This document shows, piece after piece, positions 1 to 44,064 of a stretch of DNA of 58,722 bases; the first letter of the stretch is position 1; the number at the start of each line of letters is the position of its first letter. Under the pieces are notes generated by a model. It worked only from the letters and a program-made list of their open reading frames with translations, did not search any database and was not told the origin of the DNA. The DNA comes from Candidatus Altimarinota bacterium (GTDB lineage: Bacteria; Patescibacteriota; Gracilibacteria; BD1-5; UBA6164): contig JAQVGG010000006.1 of assembly GCA_028696815.1 (NCBI GenBank), forward strand, positions 1-58,722, in the 5' to 3' direction. A program made the position numbers and the translations under genes.

Positions 1-57
1 AACTATGTTGAACAACAATGACAAGAGGAACACTATACCGAAGAAATAGAACTTTAA
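1..57 (+). CDS. C-terminal tail of an unknown protein (partial)
   Basis: The first 18 codons are open (one TGA read as Gly) and end in TAA at 55-57. The visible tail is hydrophilic and Glu/Gln-rich (for example VEQQGQEEHYTEEIEL). Nothing can be said about function; the gene begins outside the window. It is followed by a GC-rich hairpin. Confidence 0.5.
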
Positions 58-14226: not shown

Positions 14227-14362
14227 TTTGTTTTTGTCTTAAAAAAGTAATATTTCTGGAAAAATTGATATTTTCTCCTTTTGATAATATATATTTTACT
14301 ACATATTTTTTTTTAGGTCAAAAAATTAAATATTAATCTTGCATTTTAAAAAATAAAAATAT

Positions 14363-14590
14363 AATGGTGTCAAAGCGTTTGAGTCTAGCTAACACTGGAT
14401 AAGCACGAGGAAGAACGTTCCATTTGGGATTACTAGAACCTCGCGAAGTTGAAATACTTCGTAAAAAAACTAAAATTGAGAAATAAGCTATTCGGTGGCA
14501 CCTTTCTGCTAAAGCGGAACCGAAAGTATACAGATAAAGATTTTCGAAAATTATATTTGAAGATTTAATTTGTATGCTTTTTTTAATTTT
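14363..14590 (+). ncRNA. Structured leader RNA before aspS, T-box-like
   Basis: A GC-richer region in A/T-rich surroundings. Visible stems are CGAGG/CCTCG (14406-14410 and 14439-14443), CGAAGT/ACTTCG (14444-14449 and 14456-14461) and TTCGG/CCGAA (14491-14495 and 14520-14524). The last stem encloses TGGCACC (14496-14502), which matches the T-box bulge TGGNACC; its variable base C would pair with the G73 discriminator of tRNA-Asp. An intrinsic terminator (14523-14584) follows, sharing two bases with this stem. I cannot identify the specifier loop, so an unrelated small RNA remains possible. Confidence 0.4.
14523..14587 (+). terminator. Terminator upstream of aspS
   Basis: AAAGTATACA (14523-14532) pairs with TGTATGCTTT (14571-14580), one G-T pair, with a smaller inner hairpin (ATTTTCGAAAAT), followed by seven T. 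As aspS starts 30 bp later, this may be a conditional attenuator. Confidence 0.6.
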
Positions 14591-14615: not shown

Positions 14616-16442
14616 ATGCATAGAACACATACATGTAATGAACTTACAAAAGAAAATATCTGAGAAAAAGTTACTCTATCAGGTTGGGTAAGTAACAGAA
14701 GAGATCATGGTTGAATCATATTTATAGATTTAAGAGATAGATACTGATTAACTCAAATAGTTTTTGATCCAGCAGATAATAAAGAATCTTGGGAAACTGC
14801 TGACAAGTTTAGAAGTGAATATGTTATAAAAGCAACTTGAACAGTTAGATCAAGACCAGAATGACAAGATAATCCAAATATGACTACTTGAGAAATAGAA
14901 GTGATTATAAACTCAAGCGTAGAGTTATTATCAAGTGCAAAGACTACTCCTTTTGAGCTAGATGAACACTCTAAAGAGACAAACGAAGAATTGAGACTAA
15001 AATACAGATATCTTGATATGAGAAGAAAAAAGATTCTTGATTATATGAAATTTAGATCAAGTCTTACAACCTATACAAGAAATTGGTTTACTGTAAGAGA
15101 CTTTATAGATGTGCAAACTCCTATATTAGCTAACTCTTCTCCAGAATGAGCAAGAGATTTTCTAGTGCCATCAAGACTTCATCCAGGAACATTTTATGCA
15201 TTACCTCAAGCACCTCAACAATTTAAACAACTACTTATGGTATGAGGAGTTGATAAATATTTTCAAATAGCACCTTGTTTTAGAGATGAAGATCCAAGAG
15301 CTGATAGACATGCTTGAGATTTCTATCAAATAGATTGTGAGATGAGCTTTGTTGAACAAGATGATGTTTTTAAAGTTGTTGAAGACTTTCTAGTTGATAT
15401 TACTTCTGAACTAACAGATAAAAAGATATTAACTGAGACTGCTTGAAAAGATAACATAAGAGAAACAGGTAAGTTTTTTAAGCTTACGCATGAGCAAGCT
15501 ATGGAAAAATACGGTAGCGATAAACCAGATTTAAGATATGGTTTAGAGATGGTTGATGTAATAGATATATTTGAAAAATCTACAAATGAGATATTTTCAA
15601 GTATAGCTTCTGACAAAGTCAATAATAGAATCAAAGCATTAAGAGTACCAAATGGAGACAATATATTTTCTAAAACTCAGATGAAAGGTTTTGAAGACTA
15701 TGTAAGGAAATTTGGTGCAAAAGGTTTATGATACTTCCAAATGAAGGAAGACGGATTAAAATGACCTCTTAATAAATTTTTCACTGAAGCTGATTTAACT
15801 GAGCTTGTTGAAGTAACTAAACTTGAAGTATGAGATGTAGTATTTTTTGGAGCTTGAGAGAAAAAGTTAGTGCAAACATATATGTGAAAATTTAGAAATT
15901 ATTTAGCTGAGATGATGCAGTTAGCTAATCCAAAAGAAATAGCATTTTGTTGGATAGTTGACTTCCCAATCTTTGAAGAAGATGAAGTAACAGGAAAAAT
16001 AGATTTTGAACACAATCCATTTTCTATGCCTCAAGGATGAGCTGCTGACTTTGATAAAGAAGGTACTGACTTATTAAGTGTAAAATGATTTCAATATGAC
16101 CTTGCTTGTAATGGTTATGAAATACTTTCATGAGCTATAAGAAACCATGATGTAAATTCTCTTGTAAAAGCTTTTGAAAAAGTAGGTAGAACTAAGCAAG
16201 AAGTGATGGATAAATTTTGAGCTATGTATGAAGCGTTTCAATACTGAGTTCCTCCTCATGGATGATTTGCAATCGGATTTGATAGACTTATGATGATTTA
16301 TTTAAATGAACATAACATAAGGGATATATATGCTTTTCCAAAATCATGAAATGCTATGGATCTTATGATGAACTCACCAACAAAAGTAGATAATGAGCAA
16401 CTAGCTGAGTTAAATATAGAAGTGGTTGAAGATGTACAGTAG
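14616..16442 (+). CDS. aspS: Aspartyl-tRNA synthetase
   Basis: A 608-residue bacterial-type AspRS. The N-terminal OB fold (about 1-105) binds the anticodon ([23 protein letters not shown]). Class II motifs are clear: motif 2 [20 protein letters not shown] and motif 3 [15 protein letters not shown] near the C-terminus, with the bacterial GAD insertion between (about 300-400). The usual PEGARDF segment is intact, with TGA for its Gly. It charges tRNA-Asp in the cytosol; whether it is discriminating or Asn-tolerant cannot be read here, but the nearby gatB suggests that transamidation is used. A T-box-like leader precedes it. Confidence 0.96.
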
Positions 16443-42627: not shown

Positions 42628-44064
42628 ATGACTAATTATGTAAAAACTATAGGTTTAGAGATACATGTCAGAGTTAAATCTAAAACAAAGATGTTTTGTA
42701 GTTGTAAAAATGCTGTTGCACTTGCCCCAGAACCAAACATAAATGTATGTCCTATATGTATGTGATTTCCTGGTATGCTTCCTGCTCTTAATAAAGAAGT
42801 GGTTAGACTTGGGCTTATAGGAGGTATGATGATGAAGTGTGAAGTAAACAAAAAATCAAGATTTGATAGAAAGACTTACTTTTATCCTGATAATCCAAGT
42901 TCATATCAGATAACTCAGATGTATGAACCAATAGTTTGAAAATGAAGTGTTAAAACTATAGTAAACTGAGAAGTTAGAGAATTTGCTATACATCATATGC
43001 ATCTAGAAAATGATGCTTGAAAACTTATGCATGCTGGTGGGAAAACACTTTGTGATTATAACAGAGCATGAAGTCCGCTGATGGAGATAGTAACAGACCC
43101 TGTTTTTCATGACAAAGAAGAAGTTATGGAGTTTTTAAAAGAACTTCAAAAGATGATGAGAGCTGCATGAGTATCTGATGCTGATATGGAAAAAGGTCAA
43201 CTTAGATGTGATGTAAATATTTCAATAGCTCCAGAATGAGCAAATGAGTGGTGAGTAAGAACTGAAACAAAAAATGTAAATAGTTTCTCTGCTATAGGTA
43301 GAGTTATAGATCATGAATATACTAGGCAGCTAAAGATAATACAATCAGGATGAATTATTGAACAGGAAACTAGATGATGGGATGATGATAAATGAGTTTC
43401 TACATCTCAAAGAAGTAAAGAAGATGCTATGGATTATAGATATTTTCCTGAACCTGATTTACTGCCTCTTGTTCTAGATGATGAGTTTATCGAAGAGTGT
43501 AGAAAAGCGCTTCCTGAACTACCAGTAGAAAAAAGAATTAGATACCTAAATGAATATAAACTTGCTGAGGATGATGCAAGACTTCTTACAACGGATAGAG
43601 ATTTATCGGAGTATTTTGATGAATTAGTAGAATTAACAGGTGATCCTAAAAAATCTTGTTCATATATAACTACTATACTTCTTGCTATGATGAAAGAAAG
43701 AGAAGATATAACTTCAGTAACAGACTTAAAATTTGATATTAAACAGTTAGCAAGAGTTATAGAACTTGTAAACAATGATGAGTTATCTAGTACTAACTCA
43801 AAACAAGTTATAGAAGAATTGTTTAATAATGGTTGAGAAGCTGATATAATAGTTGATGAAAATAATTTAAGACAAAAAAATGATACTTGAGCTTTAGAAG
43901 CTATTGTAGATGAGGTAATTAATACTAATGCAAAACAAGTTGAAGAATACAAAGCTTGAAATATAAATATATTTGGTTTCTTTGTCGGACAATGTATGAA
44001 AGCTTCAAAGTGACAAGGTAATCCAAAGATATTTAATGAATTATTAAAGAAAAAACTAGACTAA
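42628..44064 (+). CDS. gatB: Asp/Glu-tRNA amidotransferase subunit B
   Basis: A 478-residue GatB of normal length. Hallmarks: [19 protein letters not shown], the zinc-site cysteines (FCSCKN, NVCPICMGFPG), [14 protein letters not shown] with the kinase-like site, and the C-terminal YqeY-like tail ([20 protein letters not shown]). With GatA and GatC it converts Glu-tRNA-Gln and/or Asp-tRNA-Asn. gatA and gatC are not adjacent. Many conserved glycines are TGA. A short palindromic repeat and a terminator follow. Confidence 0.96.

Follow-up and report, generated by a model that had tools for sequence, protein, structure and literature searches.

The aspS leader and its parts

The window, which here means the whole stretch of 58,722 nucleotides that was analysed, comes from a genome of Gracilibacteria type, in which TGA is read as glycine. 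It contains aspS at 14616..16442, encoding a protein of 608 aa that starts at an ATG, has 22 TGA codons read as Gly and is AspRS by NCBIfam. This gene and the parts of its leader described next are on the + strand. The RNA 5' of aspS, at 14372-14583, is very probably a genuine T-box leader.

As read from the sequence, a sigma-70-like promoter at 14339..14365 consists of TTGCAT (14339-14344), 15 nt and TATAAT (14360-14365), and its -10 box ends 6 nt before the first base of the element. A consensus promoter scan made no call for this copy with its 15-nt spacer. The pattern TTGnnn-15..18-TAnnnT, with the -10 ending 0-16 nt before the element, stands directly 5' of 123/180 members of the family described below, and is found in 43/600 control windows. 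With promoter-like sequence right before the element, a longer Stem I is unlikely.

The element opens with an ultrashort Stem I, a K-turn-like hairpin at 14372..14405 whose pairs covary in relatives. Its C-stem (G14375-C14404 and C14376-G14403) is followed by a bulge at 14377-14380 and by GA (14381-14382) opposite AA (14401-14402), for which the letters suggest K-turn geometry. The NC stem GUCUAG/CUGGAU (14383-14388/14395-14400) carries the apical loop. An earlier sequence-only reading of this DNA could not find a specifier loop by eye, but the loop exists: it is CUAACA at 14389-14394, 6 nt long, where most relatives have 7. Within it, the Asn codon AAC and the A that follows (14391..14394) are complementary to U33-G34-U35-U36 of tRNA-Asn. 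The specifier is placed at 14391-14393 because this fixed position of the model gives cognate codons across the family. Another candidate, the GAN beside the S-turn of the next stem (AGUAGAN), was rejected; there is no constraint on its third base, and ileS and valS leaders conserve it as well.

Stem II (14406..14443), compared here with that of Nocardia farcinica (PMC7583486), has a CGAGG/CCUCG helix and an apical hairpin GUUCC/GGGAU. Its internal loop, AAGAAC / UACUAGAA, corresponds to the S-turn and 5-purine string (GAA / AxUAGA). Across the family, 173/180 elements have xUAGA on the 3' strand of Stem II, and 172/180 have a GAA-like motif on its 5' strand. Stem IIA/B, at 14444..14471, is a CGAAG/CUUCG hairpin with an F-box-like UUCGUAA (14458-14464) and a possible IIB pairing AGUU/AACU. 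An F-box-like motif is present in 131/180 elements, and 82 of these 131 have the IIB pairing, against a shuffled mean of 45.8 and maximum of 58; this is a signal of the family, and the pairing is weak in the window copy. Stem III is absent here. The purine-rich linker AAAAUUGAGAAAUAA (14472..14486) occupies the site where a helix is visible in other copies (L029, L053, L184 and others). The window copy has diverged more than most: it has GA/AA and not GA/GA in the K-turn, ACUAGA and not AGUAGA in Stem II, and UUCGUAA and not CCGUUA as F-box, besides lacking Stem III.

The antiterminator spans 14487..14527. The sequence-only reading had reported TTCGG-TGGCACC-...-CCGAA, which is indeed present at 14491-14524; GGTGGNACC occurs once in the window, where 0.04 occurrences are expected. 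The lower stem, A1 (14487-14495/14520-14527), reads GCU-a-UUCGG/CCGAA-AGU and pairs over 8 bp, a single A being bulged out. The 7-nt T-box bulge UGGCACC (14496-14502) separates it from the upper helix A2, which had been described as weak but has 6 bp, UUCUGC/GCGGAA (14504-14509/14514-14519). The pairs of A1 and A2 covary. An intrinsic terminator follows at 14522..14583: GAAAGUAUACAGAU...AUUUGUAUGCUUUU and then a T tract, with a hairpin from 14522 to about 14581 of -20.4 kcal/mol. The terminator had been noted correctly, but its overlap with the stem is not two bases: about 6 nt (14522-14527) are common to it and the 3' strand of A1. A simple consensus terminator scan missed this hairpin because it is AT-rich. 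When the whole leader is folded, the minimum-energy structure also takes in pairings other than these.

A covarying family in the Patescibacteria

The aspS genes of the order's genomes and of GTDB contigs were collected and their leaders aligned. Genes were assigned by NCBIfam for some proteins, and for the remainder by tblastn similarity to those. At over 20 distinct Gracilibacteria loci, aspS is preceded by a UGGCACC block flanked by complementary stems. The aligned leaders have a fixed order of parts: promoter, K-turn-like hairpin, a second hairpin with a GAAGAA / AGUAGA internal loop, a third hairpin ending in CCGUUA or UUCGUUA, purine-rich linker, antiterminator and terminator. The block is lacking 5' of aspS in other members of the order, several of which carry the element elsewhere.

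Covariation was measured in three alignments. Among 22 aspS leaders, 21/35 pairs changed on both sides, with a score of 0.348 against 0.188 when shuffled. For 86 distinct matches, 93.8% of cells were paired and 33/34 pairs changed on both sides (0.599 vs 0.182 shuffled), and for 40 sequences outside the model training this was 32/32 pairs (0.757 vs 0.201 shuffled); these two alignments were fitted to a covariance model, which inflates their figures, while the first is exempt from this. In all three, 0/500 shuffles reached the observed covariation, and sliding the partners abolishes the signal. RNAalifold on a plain MAFFT alignment recovered most stems but also paired GGU with ACC in the bulge, which is spurious. 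The suspicion of a T-box-like leader 5' of aspS in a CPR genome is thus upheld, since the same element precedes aspS in the distinct relatives counted above and its structure covaries strongly, as the sequence-only reading had proposed to check.

A covariance model made from the 22 aspS leaders, R1, finds the element in 67 of the order's 77 genomes, often as two copies. A second and broader model, R2, was trained on 53 sequences, some from genomes later searched, and it matches in at least 147/380 Patescibacteria genomes (E <= 1e-3). This is probably a lower bound, because scoring was limited to 8 candidates per genome. As a negative control, R2 was run against the 35 Campylobacterota genomes behind aspS loci, and found nothing below E 0.28.

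The sequence-only reading had also suggested a search with the Rfam model RF00230, and here the outcome is mixed. There is no match in the window and none above noise in its own genome. Divergent CPR copies do match over the full length: in 6/20 CPR loci scanned, matches score 31-52 bits, with E from 1.6e-8 to 0.005, below the curated cut-off of 93. These sub-threshold matches fall at the same places as the element. The gathering score is a threshold, rather than a structural definition of a T-box, and scoring below it means that the element is absent from Rfam-based annotation of these loci. PreQ1 and SAM-II matches in the window had E of 2 and 7.4 and were dismissed as chance.

Specifier, downstream gene and tRNA-Asn

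The codon at the fixed model position follows the downstream gene: AAC/GAC goes with aspS (AspRS of either type), AUC with ileS/ilvA and GUC with valS. It is cognate in 126/157 elements; permutations averaged 57.5 and never exceeded 76. These leaders are related to one another and related genomes are included, so that the elements counted cannot be treated as independent events. A codon of another gene class (AAC/GAC, AUC or GUC) was not seen at this position in any of the 157. The remaining 31/157 specifiers are off the exact position, most with the cognate codon one base away and a few unreadable automatically; one locus among these, assigned as aspS, is really lysS. Single leaders, all reached via R2, extend the list: lysS with AAG, proS with CCG, and thrS with ACC and UGGA.

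The variable base of UGGN follows along. It is C in 40/44 scored Asn/Asp elements, and U in 80/85 Ile and 20/22 Val elements. Exceptions include L014 and the ileS leaders L187 and L202, where UGGU is replaced by UGGC or UGGA. In the window's own genome, tRNA-Ile and tRNA-Val have A73, complementary to the U of UGGU, and both tRNA-Glu also have A73.

Although trained on aspS leaders alone, R1 also retrieved ileS and valS leaders. Second copies in the order have AUC for AAC and UGGU for UGGC. The gene behind them is ilvA or ileS, the latter often separated from the element by at least one small gene. The window's own genome has one at G000:C39:1572-1793, 5' of ileS with three small ORFs between. 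The sequence-only reading would have held an element without aspS in relatives against a T-box, but such copies adjoin other amino-acid genes with a matching specifier.

The surroundings of the Ile copies vary. Ile-type T-boxes lie directly 5' of ilvA (threonine ammonia-lyase) at L210, L215, L216 and L221, identified by NCBIfam at L215 and by similarity at the others, and the T-box at L208 precedes a gene resembling the RidA family. This suggests that Ile-linked metabolism is under tRNA-Ile control in some Gracilibacteria. The small genes after the Ile T-box (NUDIX-like, alpha/beta hydrolase, short ORFs) differ between genomes (L209, L220, L231, L235, L171, L246 and others), and in several cases stand ahead of ileS. 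The own-genome ileS (L247:2966-6820 on G000:C39, 1285 aa) carries, between its catalytic and its anticodon-binding domain, an inserted histidine-phosphatase domain (PF00300, residues 744-915).

Which tRNA the aspS leader would sense can be considered from the same matching. The sequence-only reading had paired the C of UGGC with the G73 of tRNA-Asp. That fit stands, but tRNA-Asn also has G73, and the specifier AAC favours tRNA-Asn. In the own genome the anticodon loop is CUGUUAA for tRNA-Asn and CUGUCAC for tRNA-Asp, both with G73; CUGUUAA with G73 was found for tRNA-Asn in 30/30 genomes examined.

AsnRS over the curated cut-off was found in 0/76 genomes of the order, a few of which have weaker class II matches, while GatB is present in 71/76. 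AspRS therefore presumably charges tRNA-Asn, and we infer that it is non-discriminating. With Asn-tRNA likely made by AspRS and GatCAB, it makes sense for uncharged tRNA-Asn, as a measure of AspRS capacity, to call for more of the enzyme. The window itself contains gatB at 42628-44058. A second full-length gatB lies on contig C5 and is possibly contamination (the genome is 6% contaminated). The extra AsnRS-like class II enzymes, at G041:C27, G048:C34, G019:C16, G029:C36 and G040:C65, score 169-211 bits, below the asnS cut-off, and could be another Asp/Asn synthetase.

The window leader should, on its specifier, sense tRNA-Asn and not tRNA-Asp. The leader might instead sense tRNA-Asp, or both tRNAs, through tolerance of a first-base mismatch or through a second specifier. 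The regulated gene is aspS after all, G73 is common to both tRNAs, and GAC does occur in several CPR aspS-like leaders. Among aspS leaders of relatives, L007 carries it, so that at least one relative must have exchanged its ligand for tRNA-Asp. Two-codon T-boxes also occur in Clostridium, including a two-codon gatCAB T-box in C. acetobutylicum. Against this, the window and nearly all Gracilibacteria aspS leaders have AAC, not GAC, and pairing tRNA-Asp here would leave an A-C36 mismatch where other leaders match their cognate tRNA. This makes sensing of tRNA-Asp unlikely, and as main ligand it was set aside on the AAC loop.

Mode of control and known T-box classes

The preferred reading, to which we give a probability of roughly 0.9, is that the leader is a transcription-attenuating T-box of class III architecture that responds to tRNA-Asn and controls aspS. 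From the computed anatomy and covariation, the match of specifier to gene and of UGGN to discriminator base, and the overlap of terminator and antiterminator, we infer tRNA binding, aminoacylation sensing and the direction of regulation. The nascent RNA would fold the K-turn-like hairpin, with the codon AAC-A presented in the apical loop. Uncharged tRNA-Asn, held in a clamp by the S-turn of Stem II, would pair its U33-G34-U35-U36 with AAC-A, and its 3' end G73-C-C-A would pair with the UGGC of the T-box bulge. This pairing would stabilise the antiterminator, letting polymerase read into aspS. The 3' end of charged tRNA-Asn would be unable to pair, so the terminator would form and aspS would be off.

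In class III T-boxes, Stem I is short and lacks the IDTM, the apical loop that holds the specifier has 5-6 nt, and Stem II is required; those known so far are mostly translational (PMC10482949). The same anatomy could therefore act here at translation initiation, as in Actinobacteria, with the terminator incidental. Yet a hairpin plus T-tract at <= -10 kcal/mol follows 144/179 elements, against 43/600 control windows, and overlaps the 3' strand of A1, so that translational control is very improbable. (An earlier count, which considered the first T-tract alone, gave 95/180 and is superseded.) Some other conserved structured leader that resembles a T-box by chance, for example a protein-binding autoregulatory one, would agree with the lack of an Rfam match at the gathering threshold, but is hardly credible when specifier codon and UGGN base change together with the downstream gene and CPR copies match RF00230 significantly over its full length, if below the curated cut-off.

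Transcriptional attenuation by a tRNA-Asn T-box can be set beside the known classes. In N. farcinica, the Stem II purines are A38-A39 and A69-G70-A71, with G67-U68, and the F-box is CCGUCA (PMC7583486); these correspond to GAA / AGUAGA and CCGUUA of the CPR family. Like class III, as in ileS of Nocardia farcinica and Mycobacterium tuberculosis, the CPR elements have a short Stem I without an elbow-binding IDTM, an apical-loop specifier, a Stem II S-turn with 5-purine string (GAA / GUAGA in class III), a UGGNACC bulge and a possible IIA/B pseudoknot with F-box. Unlike class III, which is mostly but not strictly translational, they have intrinsic terminators. They are also not limited to Ile, but cover Asn, Asp, Ile and Val plus single Lys, Pro and Thr cases; they are hosted by Patescibacteria, and Stem III is frequently missing in Gracilibacteria. 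Class III anatomy together with terminators points to a class III form with transcriptional output.

With class I (RF00230, Firmicutes) the element shares the T-box bulge and the antiterminator/terminator switch, but not the long Stem I with IDTM; the window element starts only 6 nt after its -10 box. The Firmicute T-box leaders of Clostridium aspS/gatCAB are long. As with the aspS/gatCAB T-boxes of Clostridium acetobutylicum, there is a tie to the indirect Asn-tRNA pathway; unlike there, an Asn specifier sits on the aspS of a genome without AsnRS over cut-off. In C. acetobutylicum, one of three aspS genes has a T-box (PMC2494555).

Most reported T-boxes are from Firmicutes, and a small number are from Actinobacteria, Chloroflexi, Deinococcus and Proteobacteria (PMC2494555). 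In the open-licence literature, no text was found that links a T-box with CPR, Patescibacteria or Gracilibacteria; earlier mention elsewhere is possible. We consider it likely that the Patescibacteria hold a widespread, unreported class of T-box that terminates transcription, has an ultrashort Stem I and no tRNA-elbow contact, serves at least 7 amino acids and is possibly CPR-ancestral, and that where AsnRS is lacking, tRNA-Asn and not tRNA-Asp controls aspS.

According to PMC7583486, T-boxes that act on transcription generally depend on a long Stem I for their grip on the tRNA elbow. A T-box family over many CPR families, seemingly without a long Stem I, challenges this rule, and its compact members are small natural test objects for kinetics. 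The family also bears on the age of the T-box, and shows why Rfam-based annotation overlooks such elements. For the organisms themselves, it suggests amino-acid-responsive gene control in host-dependent bacteria.
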